Source: Ruegeria sp. Alg231-54
GTDB lineage: Bacteria > Pseudomonadota > Alphaproteobacteria > Rhodobacterales > Rhodobacteraceae
Assembly: GCF_900143525.1 (NCBI RefSeq)
Contig: NZ_FREZ01000001.1
Span: forward strand, 434,001 to 498,000
Direction of reading: 5' to 3'
Length of the DNA stretch: 64,000 bases
The number at the start of each line of letters is the position of its first letter. Within the stretch, counting starts at the first letter, position 1. A model generated the notes under the pieces. It was not told the DNA's origin and searched no databases. It worked only from the letters and a program-made list of their open reading frames with translations. The position numbers were made by a program, and so were the translations under genes. Shown here piece after piece: positions 22,347-30,014 of the stretch.

Positions 22347-22434
22347 ACGTTAAAAATATGTCACTTTTGGTCTTTTGGGAATGCGCTTTGACCGCTATAT
22401 GGCGTCCAAAGCAAGCGCATTTTGGAGACAGCAC

Positions 22435-23436
22435 ATGACCATCAAGGTCGGTATCAATGGTTTTGGCCGCATTGGCCGCTGCACGTTGTCGCATATCGCG
22501 GCATCCGCCCGCAACGACATCGAAGTGATCAAGGTCAACGCAACCGGCCCGCTGGAAACCACAGCGCACCTGCTAAAGTATGACAGTGTCCACGGACGTT
22601 TCCCCCGCGATGTAGCAATCGATGGCAAAACCATGGATCTGGGCCGCGGCCCGATGGAGATGTTCTCGACCTATGACATGAACGAACTGGACTGGGATGG
22701 CTGCGATGTCGTTCTGGAATGCACCGGCAAATTCAATGACGGTCTGAAAGCCAAAACGCACCTGGATCGCGGTGCGCAAAGGGTCCTGCTGTCGGCCCCC
22801 GGCAAGAACGTCGACAAGACCATCGTTTATGGTGTAAACCACAACAGCCTTGTGACCGATGACAAAATGGTCTCGAACGGCTCGTGCACCACGAACTGCC
22901 TTGCCCCGCTTGCCAAGGTACTGGACGAGGGTATCGGCATCGAGAACGGCATCATGACCACGATCCACGCCTATACCGGCGACCAGCCGACCCTGGATCG
23001 CCGTCACAGCGATTTGTACCGTGCACGTGCAGCGGCCATGTCGATGATCCCGACCTCAACAGGTGCCGCGAAAGCTTTGGGTGAAGTTCTGCCCAATCTG
23101 AAAGGTCGCCTGGATGGTTCGGCCATCCGTGTCCCGACCCCGAATGTTTCTGCGGTTGACCTGACATTCCGCGCTGCTCGTGATGTAACGGTAGAAGAAG
23201 TGAACGCCATCGTACGCGAAGCCTCGTTGGGTTCGATGCAGCGTGTTCTGGGCTATGAACCCGCACCGCTGGTTTCGACCGATTTCAACAACACCGAGGA
23301 AAGCTCGATCTTCGCACCCGATCAGACCCGCGTTGTCGGCGACCGCATGGTTCGCGTTCTGGCTTGGTACGACAACGAATGGGCGTTCTCGGTCCGCATG
23401 GCAGACGTTGCAGTTGCCATGGGTCGCCTTAACTAA
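22435..23436 (+). CDS. Type I glyceraldehyde-3-phosphate dehydrogenase, GapB-like (predicted NADP-preferring)
   Basis: Interconverts glyceraldehyde 3-phosphate and 1,3-bisphosphoglycerate. 333 residues; catalytic cysteine C151 in SNGSCTTNC. The chosen ATG at 22435 has GGAG upstream and gives the standard start MTIKVGINGFGRIGR. At the cofactor-specificity site the sequence is VNATGP (A36) where NAD enzymes have aspartate. The region resembles Bacillus GapB (INASYP), a gluconeogenic NADP enzyme, so NADP use and a gluconeogenic role are inferred. The paralogue 300 bases downstream keeps the aspartate. A terminator follows. Confidence 0.93.
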   Translation: MTIKVGINGFGRIGRCTLSHIAASARNDIEVIKVNATGPLETTAHLLKYDSVHGRFPRDVAIDGKTMDLGRGPMEMFSTYDMNELDWDGCDVVLECTGKFNDGLKAKTHLDRGAQRVLLSAPGKNVDKTIVYGVNHNSLVTDDKMVSNGSCTTNCLAPLAKVLDEGIGIENGIMTTIHAYTGDQPTLDRRHSDLYRARAAAMSMIPTSTGAAKALGEVLPNLKGRLDGSAIRVPTPNVSAVDLTFRAARDVTVEEVNAIVREASLGSMQRVLGYEPAPLVSTDFNNTEESSIFAPDQTRVVGDRMVRVLAWYDNEWAFSVRMADVAVAMGRLN

Positions 23437-23462
23437 GGTTGCTTTGAAATCTTGAACCTTTT

Positions 23463-23493
23463 CGCCCGCTCAGGTTAACTGGGCGGGCGTTTT
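23463..23493 (+). terminator. Terminator after the first GAPDH gene
   Basis: CGCCCGCTCAG, loop GTTAA, CTGGGCGGGCG, then TTTT; one T-G wobble in an 11-bp stem. Confidence 0.85.
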
Positions 23494-23507
23494 CGTCCGG
23501 GGCAATC

Positions 23508-23651
23508 ATGACAAATCAAATCGCCATCTGGCTTGCCCTACTCATTCTGGGCTTGTTCGTTATCAGCTATGCCCTCTTTGGAACCGAACAATTCGTGTTC
23601 CTTGGCAAGAAACTCTACACCTTTCTGGACTGGCTCGCCTTCTGGCGGTGA
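23508..23651 (+). CDS. Small membrane protein (47 residues) between the two GAPDH genes
   Basis: The reading frame from ATG 23508 to TGA 23651 encodes one membrane segment (IAIWLALLILGLFVISYALF) followed by an aromatic amphipathic tail with KKLYTFLDWLAFW. Codon use looks like that of neighbouring genes. I recall similar short proteins beside gap genes in other Rhodobacterales. Function is unknown. It sits between a terminator and the operator/promoter of the next gene, and its ribosome site is weak. Confidence 0.65.
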   Translation: MTNQIAIWLALLILGLFVISYALFGTEQFVFLGKKLYTFLDWLAFWR

Positions 23652-23663
23652 CAGAGGTTTTGC

Positions 23664-23700
23664 TTGACTTTTTCTCCAATCTGGCTTTGTTAGCGCTAAC
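23664..23700 (+). promoter_or_regulatory. Operator GTTAGCGCTAAC and probable promoter of the second GAPDH gene
   Basis: GTTAGCGCTAAC (23689-23700) is a perfect 12-bp palindrome 33 bases before the ATG. A -35 box TTGACT (23664-23669) lies 17-19 bases upstream, so the weak -10 region overlaps the palindrome. A bound repressor would block the polymerase. LacI-family, CceR-type binding is inferred from the motif. Confidence 0.65.
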
Positions 23701-23733
23701 TTCACATTGGCCGCATTTCGGACGGAGCAGGAC

Positions 23734-24738
23734 ATGACATTCAAGCTGGCAATCAACGGATTTGGACGGATCGGACGCGGCGTGCTGCGGGCGGTCATGG
23801 AATCCGGGCGCACTGACGTTGAAATCGTTGCGATAAACGACTTGGCGAAGCCGGAAATGAACGCGCATCTGTTCGAATTCGACAGCGTCCATGGCCGGTA
23901 CGGCAAATCGGTCACTTTGACCGAGGCAGGCCTGGATGTTGGAAACGGTCCAATCCGGCTGAGCAGCGAACGCGAGCCGGAAAAACTGGATTGGTCCGAT
24001 GTGGACGTCGTTCTGGAATGCACTGGCGTATTCCGCACACGCGAAGCCGCATCGCGCCATTTCGCGAACGGATCGAAGAAAGTCTTGATCTCGGCCCCAG
24101 CCCGCGGCGATGGCGCTGTGAAAACGATCGTGTTTGGCGTTAACGATCACGAGCTTACGGCCGAAGATAACGTGGTGTCTAATGCGTCTTGTACCACCAA
24201 CTGCCTGTCACCGGTGGCCGCAGCGCTGGACGCAGGGCTAGGCATTGTCCACGGCAACATGACCACGGTTCACGCCTACACAGCCAGCCAACCTGTCCAC
24301 GACACTGCCGGCAAAGACCCATACCTCTCCCGCGCGGCAGCATTGTCGATGATCCCGACCACGACAGGCGCGGCCTCTGCCGTTGGCCTCGTCCTGCCGC
24401 AACTGGCCGGCAAGCTGACAGGTCAGGCTATTCGTGTCCCAACCCCGAACGTGTCCGTGGTTGATCTGGTCGCCGAGGTCTCACGCCCGACGACCGAGGA
24501 AGAAGTCAACGCGCTGTTTACCGAAGCCGCAGCCAGAATTCCCGGAGTTTTGGCGGCAGAGAACCGCCCGCTGATCTCGGTGGATTTCAACCACGACCCG
24601 CACAGCTCGACCGTTTCGCTGCCGGAAACCAAGGTGACCGACGGCACACTGGTGCGTGTACTGGCGTGGTATGATAACGAATGGGGTTTCTCGAACCGGA
24701 TGCTAGACACCGCCGCGGCGATGGGAGCCTTATCCTAA
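23734..24738 (+). CDS. gap: Type I glyceraldehyde-3-phosphate dehydrogenase, NAD type
   Basis: Second GAPDH, 334 residues. Catalytic cysteine C153 in SNASCTTNC. The motif INDLAKPE keeps aspartate D36, the residue that selects NAD, so this is the likely glycolytic or NAD-linked enzyme. The ATG at 23734 has CGGAG upstream; a TTG upstream in frame is not needed. Its stop overlaps the convergent coaD by nine bases. It carries its own operator. It is clearly diverged from the first copy, so this is not a recent duplication. Confidence 0.94.
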   Translation: MTFKLAINGFGRIGRGVLRAVMESGRTDVEIVAINDLAKPEMNAHLFEFDSVHGRYGKSVTLTEAGLDVGNGPIRLSSEREPEKLDWSDVDVVLECTGVFRTREAASRHFANGSKKVLISAPARGDGAVKTIVFGVNDHELTAEDNVVSNASCTTNCLSPVAAALDAGLGIVHGNMTTVHAYTASQPVHDTAGKDPYLSRAAALSMIPTTTGAASAVGLVLPQLAGKLTGQAIRVPTPNVSVVDLVAEVSRPTTEEEVNALFTEAAARIPGVLAAENRPLISVDFNHDPHSSTVSLPETKVTDGTLVRVLAWYDNEWGFSNRMLDTAAAMGALS

Positions 24739-25804: not shown

Positions 25805-26731
25805 TCAAGGTGACACTTGAGCCTCAAGCCGCTCAACCTCTTCCCGAATACCCTGCGACAAAGCCTGCGCAAACCGGTTCAACCTTTCATTCCGCTGATC
25901 GCCCTGATGTCGCACCAGGTGAAAACTCCGGGTCAAACTCACCTGATCCGTCAGGATTTTCTGCAGGTTGGGATGAAACGGCAAGGTGAAGTCATGCGCA
26001 ACACAAACCCCCGTTCCAAGCGTGGCCTGCCGCAGCTGAACCGACACCGAATTCGATGCAAGCGCGACACGGTCAACACCGATATCCACTAGATAATCCA
26101 GCTCGCGGTCAAAGATCATATCCGGAATGTAGCCAATCATGCGATGGCCACTCAGGTCCTTGATCGAACGGATTGCCGGGCAAGAGGCCAGATAGTCGCG
26201 CGTCGCAACAAGGTGCAGTTTGTAGTCAGTGATTTTCTGGACCAGAAGGCTCCCAGCTGTTGGTGCACTGACGGTCACCGCCATATCCGCCTCACGCCGA
26301 GACAGGTTGATCACGCGCGGCAGGGCCAGAATCTGAATATCCAGATCGGGGTTAGCATCGCTGATTTTCGCGCAGACCTGCGGCAAAAGATAGTTGGCCG
26401 ACCCGTCCGGCGCGCCAATCCGTATTTGTCCGCTGAGCGTTTTCGACGTTCCCGCCATCGCGCCAGCCGCCGCGCGCATCGCCTCCTCTGCTTTTTGCCC
26501 GTGTTCCATCAGGCGTTCGCCCGCAGCGGTCAAAAGGTAGCCTTGTTGCGACTTGGTAAACAGGGGGGCTTCCAATGAGGCTTCTAACCGAGCAATCCGT
26601 CGCCCGACGGTGGCTGGGTCGATCTTCAGCTGACGCCCGGCAGCCGAAAGGCTTTCTTCGCGCGCGACGGCCAGAAAGACCCGCATATCATCCCAGTTTG
26701 GTGTCACGCCCCGCCCTTTGCATTTTTGCAA
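25805..26731 (-). CDS. LysR-family regulator, divergent from mmsA
   Basis: A 308-residue LysR protein; the helix-turn-helix is MRVFLAVAREESLSAAGRQLKIDPATVGRRIARLE. The effector domain begins near 100. A GTG at 26707 (VTPNWDDMRVF) is an alternative start that fits the usual LysR N-terminus better. Its position, divergent from mmsA with 80 bases between them, suggests that it controls valine/methylmalonate-semialdehyde metabolism. Inverted repeats lie in that gap. The effector is not known. Confidence 0.88.
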   Translation of the reverse strand: MQKCKGRGVTPNWDDMRVFLAVAREESLSAAGRQLKIDPATVGRRIARLEASLEAPLFTKSQQGYLLTAAGERLMEHGQKAEEAMRAAAGAMAGTSKTLSGQIRIGAPDGSANYLLPQVCAKISDANPDLDIQILALPRVINLSRREADMAVTVSAPTAGSLLVQKITDYKLHLVATRDYLASCPAIRSIKDLSGHRMIGYIPDMIFDRELDYLVDIGVDRVALASNSVSVQLRQATLGTGVCVAHDFTLPFHPNLQKILTDQVSLTRSFHLVRHQGDQRNERLNRFAQALSQGIREEVERLEAQVSP

Positions 26732-26745
26732 AACATCTTTGGGAC

Positions 26746-26790
26746 ATTGCCTCTATTCAAGCAATTTATGCAAGCCTATTGTGCGCACAA
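26746..26790. promoter_or_regulatory. Inverted repeats in the LysR/mmsA divergent region
   Basis: ATTGC, ten bases, GCAAT (26746-26765) and the perfect palindrome TTGTGCGCACAA (26779-26790, 21 bases before the mmsA ATG). Either could be the operator; neither fits the strict T-N11-A LysR rule. Confidence 0.45.
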
Positions 26791-26811
26791 ACGCATCGGA
26801 GGAGATCTGCA

Positions 26812-28311
26812 ATGACCGAGCTGTCCCATTTCATCAACGGCGAGAATGTCGCCGGAACCTCAGGACGATTTGACGACGTCTTTAACCCCGCCACTGGCGA
26901 GGTTCAGTACAAGTGCCCGATGGCAAGTGCTGCTGAAACCACGGCGGCAATCGAAAGCGCAGCCGCCGCGCAGCTTACCTGGGGTGCAACCAATCCACAG
27001 AAACGCGCACGTGTCATGATGGCCATGGTTCACCTGATGAACCGCGACATGGACAAACTGGCCGAGGCGCTCAGCCGCGAGCATGGCAAAACCATCCCAG
27101 ACGCCAAGGGCGACTTGCAGCGCGGTCTGGAAGTGATCGAATACTGCATCGCCGCACCGCAGATGCTGAAGGGAGAGTTCACCGACAGCGCAGGCCCTGG
27201 CATCGACATGTATTCCATGCGGCAGCCGCTGGGTGTTGTTGCATCCATTATGCCGTTCAACTTCCCAGCCATGATGCCGCTTTGGCACGTAGGCCCTGCC
27301 CTGGCCTGCGGCAACGCAGTGGTTCTGAAACCGTCCGAGCGTGATCCCTCCGTTCCCCTGATGCTAGCAGAGCTGTTTGTCGAAGCCGGCCTGCCCAAGG
27401 GCGTCTTCCAGGTCGTCAATGGCGACAAAGAGGCCGTGGACACTCTGCTGGACAGCGATACCATTCAGGGCGTGTCCTTTGTTGGCTCGACCCCGATCGC
27501 GCAATACATCTATTCCCGCGCGACTGCGAACGGTAAGCGCGCGCAGTGTTTCGGCGGCGCCAAGAACCACATGATCGTCATGCCTGACGCGGATCTGGAT
27601 CAGGCGGCCGACGCTTTGGTCGGTGCCGGGTTTGGCGCGGCGGGCGAACGCTGCATGGCCATCTCGGTTGCTGTGCCCGTTGGCGAAGAAACAGCCGACG
27701 CACTGATCGAAAAGCTGATTCCACGCGTTGAAAAGCTGAAGGTCGGCCCCTACACCGCCGGCGATGACGTCGACATGGGCCCAGTTGTAACCGGTGCTGC
27801 CAAAGAGCGTATTCTTGGTCTGATCAACTCGGGCGTAGAACAAGGCGCGAAGCTGGTTGTTGATAACCGCGACTTCAGCTTGCAGGGCTATGAGGACGGC
27901 TTCTTTGTCGGCCCACACCTGTTCGATAACGTGACGCCCGAGATGGACATCTACAAGCAAGAGATCTTTGGCCCGGTTCTGTCGACCGTGCGCGCAGGCT
28001 CTTATGAAGAAGCACTGAAACTGGCGATGGATCACGAGTACGGCAACGGCACTGCAATCTTCACTCGCGATGGCGACACCGCGCGCGACTTTGCCAGCCG
28101 TGTGAATATCGGCATGGTCGGGATCAACGTTCCGATCCCTGTTCCGCTGGCCTACCACACCTTTGGCGGCTGGAAAAAATCTATGTTTGGTGACCTGAAC
28201 CAGCACGGTCCGGATAGCTTCAAGTTCTACACCCGCACGAAAACCGTCACAGCGCGCTGGCCGTCGGGCATCAAAGAAGGTGGCGAATTCAACTTCAAAG
28301 CGATGGACTGA
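26812..28311 (+). CDS. mmsA: Methylmalonate-semialdehyde dehydrogenase (CoA-acylating)
   Basis: Oxidises methylmalonate semialdehyde to propionyl-CoA in valine degradation, and malonate semialdehyde to acetyl-CoA. 499 residues from ATG 26812, which has GGAGGAG upstream. The aldehyde dehydrogenase fold is clear, with KPSERDPSVPLMLAELF, GSTPIAQYIY and the catalytic cysteine in GAAGERCMAISV. It stands apart from the other valine genes at 32.8-35.9 kb and has its own divergent LysR gene. Confidence 0.95.
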   Translation: MTELSHFINGENVAGTSGRFDDVFNPATGEVQYKCPMASAAETTAAIESAAAAQLTWGATNPQKRARVMMAMVHLMNRDMDKLAEALSREHGKTIPDAKGDLQRGLEVIEYCIAAPQMLKGEFTDSAGPGIDMYSMRQPLGVVASIMPFNFPAMMPLWHVGPALACGNAVVLKPSERDPSVPLMLAELFVEAGLPKGVFQVVNGDKEAVDTLLDSDTIQGVSFVGSTPIAQYIYSRATANGKRAQCFGGAKNHMIVMPDADLDQAADALVGAGFGAAGERCMAISVAVPVGEETADALIEKLIPRVEKLKVGPYTAGDDVDMGPVVTGAAKERILGLINSGVEQGAKLVVDNRDFSLQGYEDGFFVGPHLFDNVTPEMDIYKQEIFGPVLSTVRAGSYEEALKLAMDHEYGNGTAIFTRDGDTARDFASRVNIGMVGINVPIPVPLAYHTFGGWKKSMFGDLNQHGPDSFKFYTRTKTVTARWPSGIKEGGEFNFKAMD

Positions 28312-28332
28312 TTTCCCACCCAAACAAATTCA

Positions 28333-28360
28333 AAAGGCCGCCCCGTTGGGCGGCCTTTTT
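28333..28360. terminator. Terminator between mmsA and the EF-hand gene
   Basis: AAAGGCCGCC, loop CCGTTG, GGCGGCCTTT, followed by TT. It serves mmsA on the plus strand; the A tract on the left could serve the convergent gene. Confidence 0.85.
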
Positions 28361-28377: not shown

Positions 28378-29163
28378 TCAGTTCTGTAGAAATTCGCGCA
28401 ATGTGACTCTGCCATCAAAATTCGCGTCAAACTCGGCCATGACCATCCGCAGCTCGTGCGCAGGGATACAAGCTTTGGCAATGCCTTCGATCTTGTCGCT
28501 TTCAACCATGGTCAAGCATTCGGCCGACAGCGGCTCATCCATTTCCGGATCGGGGAACTCGATGAGATCCCGCACTTCCATGGCCACAAATTCATCCGGG
28601 GACACCACGCCATTTTCGTCGGCATCATATTCGAGAAACTCCACCGCCCGCTCTGCCAGATAGAAGATTTCGAATTCAGAATATTCGACGTGTCCGTCTG
28701 CGTTGGAATCCGCCCGATTGATCTCCTCAGCTGCAATAGCTTCTGGTGTGCAGGATTCTTTTGCCGCTTCACAATCATCCCCGACGATGAGGCCCTCATC
28801 TTCCGTCAGGAATTGGTACAATTCCGGTTCAGTAATCACCCCATCCCCGTCGCGATCCAACTCGGCAAAGAAGATCCGCGCCATAGGCGTTGCTTGTGCA
28901 GGTGTTTGGGCAGACCCCCAATAAAGACCAGCCAGTAACAAGACCGGCAGCAGATAGAGCGTCTTAGGGGCAAAACGGCTGAGCGTTCGAATGGGCATTT
29001 CATCTTCTCCGACAGTGTCTGGTGAAGGCCCTGCCAGCTCGCGGTCGATCACACCACGCACGAGTTCGCTCATCGACGATCCGCGCTGTTCGCTCAGATC
29101 TGCCAACTTGCTTTTCAACTCATAAGATACGCGAATTTCCAAGGTTTCCGATTTCTTGGTCAT
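28378..29163 (-). CDS. Membrane-spanning ribbon-helix-helix / EF-hand protein (candidate transmembrane calcium-responsive regulator)
   Basis: 261 residues from the ATG at 29163. Residues 5-44 have the ribbon-helix-helix pattern: strand LEIRVS, helix LKSKLADLSEQRG, then SSMSELVRGVIDREL. One membrane segment lies at 66-85, preceded by R59, R63 and K67, which puts the N-terminus inside. The periplasmic part has four canonical 12-residue EF loops, each beginning with D and ending with E: 103-114, 152-163, 180-191 and 246-257. Two cysteine pairs (C131/C138, C216/C232) could form disulfides. I know no described family with this order. DNA control by calcium is inference. Confidence 0.85.
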   Translation of the reverse strand: MTKKSETLEIRVSYELKSKLADLSEQRGSSMSELVRGVIDRELAGPSPDTVGEDEMPIRTLSRFAPKTLYLLPVLLLAGLYWGSAQTPAQATPMARIFFAELDRDGDGVITEPELYQFLTEDEGLIVGDDCEAAKESCTPEAIAAEEINRADSNADGHVEYSEFEIFYLAERAVEFLEYDADENGVVSPDEFVAMEVRDLIEFPDPEMDEPLSAECLTMVESDKIEGIAKACIPAHELRMVMAEFDANFDGRVTLREFLQN

Positions 29164-29192
29164 ATCGTGCGGTCTCCGAACATCTGTGGGCC

Positions 29193-29297
29193 TGTCCCCT
29201 GGAATTGGAGCAGACATGCCCGAAAAAATACCCCAAGCCGTGTCCCGCAAACAGCAAAAACCTGTCCGGACACCGAGTATTCCCCCGTCCGGACAGG
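29193..29297. promoter_or_regulatory. TGTCC/GGACA repeat array between the RHH/EF-hand gene and the L,D-transpeptidase gene
   Basis: TGTCC occurs at 29193 and 29241. CCTGTCCGGAC (29261-29271) and GTCCGGACAGG (29287-29297) form a perfect 11-bp inverted repeat, and each arm contains a palindrome centred on TCCGGA, 23 bp apart. Ribbon-helix-helix proteins usually bind such short tandem palindromes. An RNA hairpin role is also possible. Confidence 0.55.
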
Positions 29298-29414: not shown

Positions 29415-30014
29415 GTGTCCAGTTCCCGTATTAATCGTCGTACCGCCTTGCTGGGTGCTGCGTCCGTCCTAGCGACGCCGACGCTTCTGCGCGCCCAAAG
29501 CTCAGATGCTTTCCCAACAACAGAAGAGGCGATCAGCACGCAATTGCCGGTGCGCCGCAATGTCTCGTCCTTCTCGCAACAGAACTGGCAGGACCATTTT
29601 GACCAGCTGGGCGCGGGGGCTTTGCTGGCCGATATCACCAGCCGCGCGGTGCACTATTGGGGGCCCGATGGCACCTACAAACTTTACCCCAGTTCGGTAC
29701 CGATGAGCGAAGAGCTGACGAAGCGCGGTTATACCAAGGTTGTGCGCAAAGCGGAGAACCCAAGCTGGACACCGACCGCGTCAATGCGCGAGCGTGATCC
29801 GCTGTTGCCAGTGCGTATGGAAGGTGGTGAACCAGGCAACCCGTTGGGCACCCGTGCAATGTATCTGGGCTGGCCAGCCTATCTTGTACACGGCACCCAC
29901 GATACGCGAAAAATCGGGCGCCAAAGCTCGTCCGGGTGCATCGGCCTGTACAATCAACATGTCGAGGAATTGTTTCCTCTCGTCCAGGTCGGAACCCAGG
30001 TCAGACTGGTCTAA
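29415..30014 (+). CDS. Exported L,D-transpeptidase (YkuD/ErfK type)
   Basis: Periplasmic enzyme that cross-links or anchors to peptidoglycan, 199 residues. It starts with GTG at 29415 after a perfect AGGAGG. The N-terminus has a twin-arginine-like signal NRRTALLGAASVLA, ending near LLRAQ. The catalytic motif is VHGTHDTRKIG followed by SSGCIGLYN with C175; the usual arginine after GC(I/V) is replaced by glycine, a variant I have seen in this group. It is divergent from the RHH/EF-hand gene and may be its target. Confidence 0.9.
   Translation: MSSSRINRRTALLGAASVLATPTLLRAQSSDAFPTTEEAISTQLPVRRNVSSFSQQNWQDHFDQLGAGALLADITSRAVHYWGPDGTYKLYPSSVPMSEELTKRGYTKVVRKAENPSWTPTASMRERDPLLPVRMEGGEPGNPLGTRAMYLGWPAYLVHGTHDTRKIGRQSSSGCIGLYNQHVEELFPLVQVGTQVRLV

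Follow-up and report, generated by a model that had tools for sequence, protein, structure and literature searches.

On the minus strand of the window (the whole 64,000-nucleotide stretch of DNA that was analysed), an open reading frame runs from a start codon at 29163 to a stop codon ending at 28378, and the plus strand of the same interval is interrupted by stops. The gene, encoding a protein of 261 amino acids, was confirmed as real; a preliminary description had placed it at 28378-29163, and these limits hold on the minus strand only. The features of the locus are listed here with the evidence for each in brackets (RHH, ribbon-helix-helix; SD, Shine-Dalgarno; TM, transmembrane segment).

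28332..28359, minus strand: terminator-like hairpin directly 3′ of the gene (pattern match only)
28378..29163, minus strand: long open reading frame, 261 aa, RHH - signal peptide/TM - four EF-hands (translation, conserved start region, dN/dS)
28378..28998, minus strand: predicted short product from M56, 206 aa, signal peptide and EF-hands (internal start, SD, segment pattern)
28393..28428, minus strand: EF loop 4, residues 246-257 (translation, Pfam)
28591..28626, minus strand: EF loop 3, residues 180-191 (translation, Pfam)
28675..28710, minus strand: EF loop 2, residues 152-163 (translation, Pfam)
28822..28857, minus strand: EF loop 1, residues 103-114 (translation, Pfam)
28891..28968, minus strand: hydrophobic segment and AQA, residues 66-91, read as the h- and c-regions of a signal peptide (segment pattern)
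29007..29010, minus strand: internal SD-like GGAG (SD energy, codon use)
29032..29151, minus strand: RHH domain, residues 5-44 (profile matches, invariant residues, fold matches)
29174..29177, minus strand: SD-like GGAG of the first start codon (SD energy -6.6)
29239..29250, unstranded: degenerate third box TTGCGGGACACG, 22 bp downstream of the main box (sequence comparison)
29263..29272, unstranded: main predicted operator box TGTCCGGACA, 109 nt upstream of the start (sequence comparison, site profile)
29286..29295, unstranded: second predicted operator box TGTCCGGACG, 23 bp upstream of the main box (sequence comparison)

Translation and Pfam bore out the four canonical EF loops that had been reported at these positions. 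Four EF stretches of the 261-residue protein match Pfam models far above cutoff (EF-hand_5, 3.2e-17; EF-hand_1, 7.4e-17), and all four loops are of twelve residues, with acidic or polar residues at positions 1, 3 and 5, glycine at 6 and glutamate at 12, indicating EF-hand membership. This part of the protein presumably binds Ca2+. Membership of two more narrowly defined EF-hand families was rejected: lanmodulin LanM (25.8 bits against a curated NCBIfam cutoff of 135) and XopAW (32.5 bits against 120) have EF-hand loops in common with the window protein but match it weakly, far under their cutoffs. Terminator-like hairpins of the kind found 3′ of the gene occur three times in the whole stretch, against 1.5 expected for this pattern match.

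The RHH-like pattern previously noticed at residues 5-44 is real, though weak when the window sequence is taken alone. RHH_1 scored 14.7 bits on the whole window protein and 19.2 bits on residues 1-46, where the curated cutoff is 20.5. Relatives of the protein gave stronger matches: RHH_1 was found in 11 of 14 (Pfam profile, best 3e-5), a NikA-like profile in 6 of 14 (best 3e-7), and one relative with the same N-terminus (L179) reached 22.4 bits with RHH_1, over the curated cutoff. The assignment to the RHH superfamily by sequence profile therefore holds at the family level, with the window protein by itself just under the cutoff. A profile of the domain compared with the PDB gave nine matches at E ≤ 1, among them MazE7 (0.0038), MatP (0.07-0.24), NikA (0.57) and VapB26 (0.78), which we take to be RHH proteins, and three non-RHH structures (E 0.4-0.65). 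Seven residues (K3, K4, E9, R11, K17, S32 and R36) are invariant across 38 sequences, and by comparison with Arc we assume T7, E9 and R11 to be the outward-facing strand residues of the ribbon, residue 7 being the first.

Residues 2-45 show a dN/dS of 0.06 among seven Ruegeria genes, a sign of strong purifying selection and therefore of translation of the RHH part. Across Ruegeria orthologues the RHH codons (29032-29160) also have a dS of 0.44, clearly under that of the EF part (2.1, near saturation). An AlphaFold2 model from seven sequences was poor and of low confidence, with the ribbon absent, and residues 1-50, modelled as a monomer, formed two helices (3-27 and 31-43) and no strand. A fold search with this monomer model returned none of its ten best matches at E ≤ 0.001; seven of the ten are presumably RHH proteins.

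The order RHH-TM-EF-hand, proposed for the window protein in the preliminary description, recurs: full-length profiles recovered 53 relatives in Alphaproteobacteria with RHH, hydrophobic segment and EF-hands in this order (33 distinct members first and 20 later), near-copies and two damaged genes included. EF-hands were positive in all 16 relatives tested with Pfam. Within the same family, relatives were present in 10 of 394 genomes, the window's own included (E ≤ 1e-8). With a profile built from 16 members, matches at E ≤ 1e-14 turned up in the order (73 of 390 genomes) and the class (11 of 385), and at E ≤ 1e-15 in one other family (26 of 105) and the phylum (6 of 398); many of the order and class matches span only the EF part. 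The plasmids searched gave zero matches. The window's own genome also holds a 168-aa frame with an EF-hand match that covers only the post-RHH part (G000:C31:90194-90604), with similar cases in many relatives. Both damaged copies are from Ruegeria and keep the operator: one (L037) has a frameshift in the hydrophobic segment and the other (L038) an internal deletion after which residues 1-24 remain, suggesting that the gene can be dispensed with there.

Between RHH and EF-hands, the sequence read from an internal methionine has a basic n-region followed by a hydrophobic core. An A-x-A motif lies in or after the end of this core in 45 of 51 first-set members (a permissive pattern, counted without a control) and is absent in the other six. 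In 16 members the EF part has two invariant cysteines, a pair that fits an oxidising compartment and, like the n-region, core and A-x-A, periplasmic export.

An in-frame start precedes the hydrophobic segment in 49 of the 53 first-set members. The SD energy at this internal start is -5 or lower in 43 of 53, compared with 10.3% of 3051 other internal ATGs; in a second set of 21 genes it is ≤ -5 in 18 and ≤ -4.3 in 19. The best start was taken where a gene had several candidates, and TTG was accepted solely for two members (L090/L091), which carry TTG with AAGGAGG in the place of the ATG. ATG internal starts are lacking in L096, L130, L138b and L186, weak starts occur in L097, L127, L132 and L185b, and in L038 the start is deleted. 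Codon choice in the SD window is skewed. The window gene and its seven close Ruegeria orthologues all use GGA at codon 52, and when 46 first-set genes were pooled, 29 of 32 glycine codons in the SD window were GGA versus 80 of 735 elsewhere, and 13 of 17 arginine codons were AGA or AGG versus 61 of 738; the first 30 genes had given 25 of 26 GGA in the window versus 48 of 427 elsewhere. The 46-gene counts leave out L097, L127 and L132 and the members lacking a candidate start (L038, L096, L130, L138b), and take the frameshifted L037 up to codon 85 only. The internal SD is moreover built from differing frames and residues (AAG GAG GCC, GAA AGG ACC, ATG GAG, GGA GAA). Synonymous-codon shuffles for the internal SD, done gene by gene, were not significant (p 0.05-0.55); the case for the internal start is built on the pooled use of rare codons and on the SD arising in different frames and residues.

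The gene seems built for two versions, one long and one short and plainly exported. Because an A-x-A follows the segment, and because the segment has its own SD and start codon, it has the appearance of a cleavable signal peptide, and one that can also be produced free of the RHH domain; the long form is possibly cleaved too. The preliminary description had seen a membrane segment with positive residues on its N side, and both the segment and its basic N side were found, but the A-x-A motif and the internal start put a permanent transmembrane sensor in doubt. It is also conceivable that only the long form is made, the internal SD and ATG being left over from an ancient fusion between an RHH gene and a signal-peptide gene. 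An origin by fusion is plausible, since EF-hand matches spanning only the post-RHH part occur in many of the genomes searched, the window's own included, and the internal start is absent or weak in several members. A relic would decay, however, whereas the GGA and AGR codons are kept across genera against the background of a diverging linker (dN/dS 0.32 in Ruegeria), and the two members with TTG and AAGGAGG replacing the ATG also speak against decay, so we regard the relic as quite improbable.

Upstream of the gene, TGTCCGGACA or a close variant is found about 90-200 nt before the start in family members, often with a second copy some 22-25 bp from the first, giving a tandem arrangement. The consensus over 27 genes reads TGTCCGGACACGAAA, followed after a gap of some 8-9 bases by a second CGTCNGGACACG. 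A perfect TGTCNNGACA occurs in the upstream regions of 50 of the 53 first-set members and in 1 of 383 control upstreams, taken from other ORFs of at least 200 aa at the same loci. Counting both sets, 69 of the 74 genes that share this N-terminus have TGTCNNGACA boxes upstream; L186 has no perfect box and L128, L129, L131 and L185b have near-misses. The 74 genes exclude a mobilisation-type RHH protein (L187) and a degraded gene (L190); L174/L175 duplicate L188/L189, and the L145 protein was counted once, as L191. In L130 no in-frame ATG lies ahead of the RHH domain, hence its box distance is approximate. In the window, the likely DNA target, with boxes at 29263-29272 and 29286-29295, falls inside the region (29193-29297) where one had been expected.

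A profile of 27 operator sites was searched in 50 genomes with strict filters (E ≤ 0.5). In all 22 carriers among them the best match was the gene's own upstream region, even where the gene is damaged (two carriers); 20 of these 22 sites had gone into the model, and those of G012 and G019 had not. The 28 non-carrier genomes held no match better than E = 0.05, one coding-region match excepted (G022, E = 0.0014, inside an unrelated coding region). In 19 further genomes outside the model, 15 of 18 matches at E ≤ 0.05 lay just upstream of cassette genes, that is, genes with this N-terminus; the remaining three (E 0.018-0.049) were chance-like, with no cassette gene beside them. At the same threshold 3 of the 15 carriers gave no match, and all four non-carriers gave zero. 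The exact 10-mer TGTCCGGACA occurs at four sites in the window's own genome, and a genome-wide regulon was rejected: the other three sites (at the start of an aroA-like gene, in an intergenic region and inside a frame) look unrelated and are without the tandem layout.

Box sequence varies with residue 7 of the RHH domain. The first two members with lysine at this position, then the only ones, had TGTCATGACA in place of the CG centre; the relation predicted from these two held in five later cases, all with TGTCATGACA, four of them EF-type (L126, L127, L130, L132) and one without EF-hands (L179). In total, an AT centre accompanies lysine 7 in 7 of 7 genes and another residue in 0 of 67. Members with serine 7 and aspartate 9 have a CT or AG centre (8/8), those with leucine 7 have the imperfect box TGTGGGGACA (3/3), and the remainder mostly have a CG centre, with single-base variants. 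In genome G1058, each of three paralogues (L130 and both L181 genes) has a residue pattern and a box different from those of the other two. For lysine 7 and AT, Fisher's test gave p 6e-10 with kinship ignored; in a quickly built tree with 50 rows, the best topology requires three changes of the trait, only one of them forced by strongly supported branches, and lysine-7 members L097, L127 and L132 belong to one genus. A residue-to-base relation, together with differing paralogues in one genome, offers a ready-made test of RHH specificity.

Strong operator matches stand almost only beside cassette genes, and the box centre changes with residue 7; on these grounds, the most likely role of the RHH domain is to autoregulate the gene that encodes it, not nearby genes. 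Another conserved regulator might instead bind the boxes, and L186, whose RHH-like N-terminus comes with no box, is in keeping with this. We hold it to be very improbable: the boxes accompany the cassette, profile matches are absent or chance-like in non-carriers, the box centre follows a residue of the RHH domain itself, and boxes differ between paralogues of a single genome.

A profile of the RHH and hydrophobic parts located the cassette in 37 of 60 chosen genomes (E ≤ 1e-6). The 21 further distinct cassette genes that were read, 19 of them with a perfect TGTCNNGACA core, are not all of the EF type. By eye, six have a complete TonB_C-like domain after the cassette (L180, L181, L182, L184, L185, L189), and Pfam confirmed TonB_C in all four tested (32.3-40.7 bits against a cutoff of 24.6). 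Two further TonB_C-like starts are incomplete, one running off its locus (L195) and one apparently frameshifted (L183), and in L179 the domain after the cassette has no Pfam match. The other twelve look EF-type; four of the five tested pass the EF-hand cutoff and L186 does not. The six TonB_C cassette genes each have their own TGTC..GACA box and are possibly self-regulating TonB-like proteins.

These genes bear on a further interpretation of the window protein, a transmembrane one-component calcium sensor, as the preliminary description had suggested: the long form would stay anchored and Ca2+-loaded periplasmic EF-hands would alter the hold of the RHH dimer on DNA, the target being its own promoter. 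The four canonical EF loops, the hydrophobic segment with its basic N side and the operator at its own gene all agree with such a sensor; the six first-set members without A-x-A do so as well, and a protein from another family (L145/L191), by eye also without A-x-A, may be truly anchored. We nevertheless consider it unlikely. Most members have the A-x-A motif, a dedicated internal start yields the sensor part without the RHH domain, and the regulon amounts to about one gene. The RHH-signal cassette also precedes TonB_C in place of EF-hands, and Ca2+ therefore cannot be the general signal of the cassette.

The genes nearby vary by lineage. Downstream of the Ruegeria copies, and of five relatives, stands a methylmalonate-semialdehyde dehydrogenase-like gene (named by eye), in most cases oriented tail to tail, with other frames between the two in L083. 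Five other relatives lie 45-180 nt upstream of isovaleryl-CoA dehydrogenase-like and MCC-like genes (by eye), a sixth (L086) has frames intervening before them, and the remaining relatives have other neighbourhoods. Genes resembling those of branched-chain amino acid catabolism thus occur in two arrangements (by eye; window 26575-28311; L085, L086, L090, L091, L094, L095), mmsA-like genes tail to tail and isovaleryl-CoA dehydrogenase/MCC-like genes downstream. As a guide to function the neighbourhood was set aside, being suggestive but inconsistent, and the operator profile is without a match at those genes. In Ruegeria, a divergent L,D-transpeptidase-like gene (window 29415-30014, by eye) shares the box-bearing intergenic region and could be co-regulated. 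A tandem pair of glyceraldehyde-3-phosphate dehydrogenase-like genes (by eye) lies at 22375-24738 of the window. The preliminary description had proposed an RHH one-component regulator controlling nearby genes. Its layout is supported: first an RHH domain, then a membrane-spanning segment, then an EF-hand module outside the cytoplasm. The control of nearby genes is not supported, as operator-profile matches outside cassette genes are chance-like only and the neighbours change from lineage to lineage.

Strong sequence evidence exists for the domains, for a conserved and nearly private operator, for the link between residue and box and for the internal start, and the reading we favour, with a probability of roughly 0.75, is that of an exported EF-hand protein with its own regulator built in, self-regulated and made as two translation products. 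From the first start, the long product would be made, its RHH domain remaining cytoplasmic and dimerising. We infer that the dimer itself binds the tandem TGTCCGGACA boxes that lie some 100 nt 5′ of the gene and that the long form would in this way autoregulate, the sign most likely being repression. From M56, with its own SD, the short product would carry an ordinary signal peptide, be exported and, as we also infer, be cleaved after AQA. Export or processing of the long form may then remove the RHH domain from the DNA, a putative release that would couple expression to export. If this is correct, the gene is a compact one-gene feedback loop whose product and dedicated regulator sit in different compartments; annotation with a single start would overlook the exported form.

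More tentatively, and with less than even odds, the N-terminal part may be a modular cassette, in which a private operator is joined to an RHH domain, an internal start and a signal peptide, placed before unrelated periplasmic domains, in which a residue-base code would insulate paralogues and export of the long form would silence the repressor, so that expression reads the state of export. The domains fronted by the cassette are EF-hands, TonB_C and one without a Pfam match; if the idea holds, each such gene makes an exported product together with a dedicated repressor of its own, and annotation as 'EF-hand' or 'TonB' alone would overlook the regulator.

In the literature searched, which covered few subscription papers and preprints, ribbon-helix-helix and EF-hand had no joint mention, also when combined with transmembrane, and no paper contained the membrane and RHH terms all together. 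Among the matches listed, no title or abstract start described an RHH-TonB fusion, and the combination proposed here, of an RHH domain reading its own operator with a second start for the exported part, was not found; those listed for TGTCCGGACA were p53 work and unrelated-looking papers.

Several known systems resemble parts of this arrangement. Regulators of the ToxR/CadC type have a cytoplasmic winged-helix DNA-binding domain, one hydrophobic segment and an extracytoplasmic domain, and regulate other genes. The window protein matches this layout of DNA-binding domain, single hydrophobic segment and extracytoplasmic domain, but unlike them it has an RHH domain, a signal-peptide-like segment and apparently its own gene as sole target; membership was rejected, as a winged-helix Pfam match is absent and an RHH domain is present instead. 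The CopG/Arc/MetJ and antitoxin RHH repressors are small cytoplasmic proteins with short palindromic tandem operators by their own gene, where they autoregulate. They share with the window protein the RHH domain, short palindromic tandem boxes beside the gene and autoregulation (predicted here), and differ in that the window RHH domain is fused to a predicted exported protein; no toxin partner was noticed.

PutA is not known to have a signal peptide, and an identity of the PutA type was rejected because the Pfam matches of the window protein include no proline dehydrogenase or P5C dehydrogenase domain. Trifunctional PutA is described as an N-terminal RHH domain fused to a proline catabolic enzyme, and as an autogenous repressor that switches between DNA and membrane (PMC5293562). 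It offers the closest known logic, combining RHH fusion, autogenous repression and a switch of location. Both proteins have an N-terminal RHH domain on a functional protein, with autogenous repression proposed here for the window protein; PutA is a membrane-associated enzyme, whereas the window protein is predicted to be exported, with an internal start for an RHH-free product and an operator seemingly of its own gene only. Genes with two in-frame starts are also known: two papers describe two-polypeptide endolysins, in which one gene gives a shorter product from an internal start (PMC9430671), and bacterial N-terminal proteoform pairs from in-frame internal starts (PMC11005335). Unlike the internal-start genes described there, the extra N-terminus of the long form is here a putative transcriptional regulator of the same gene.
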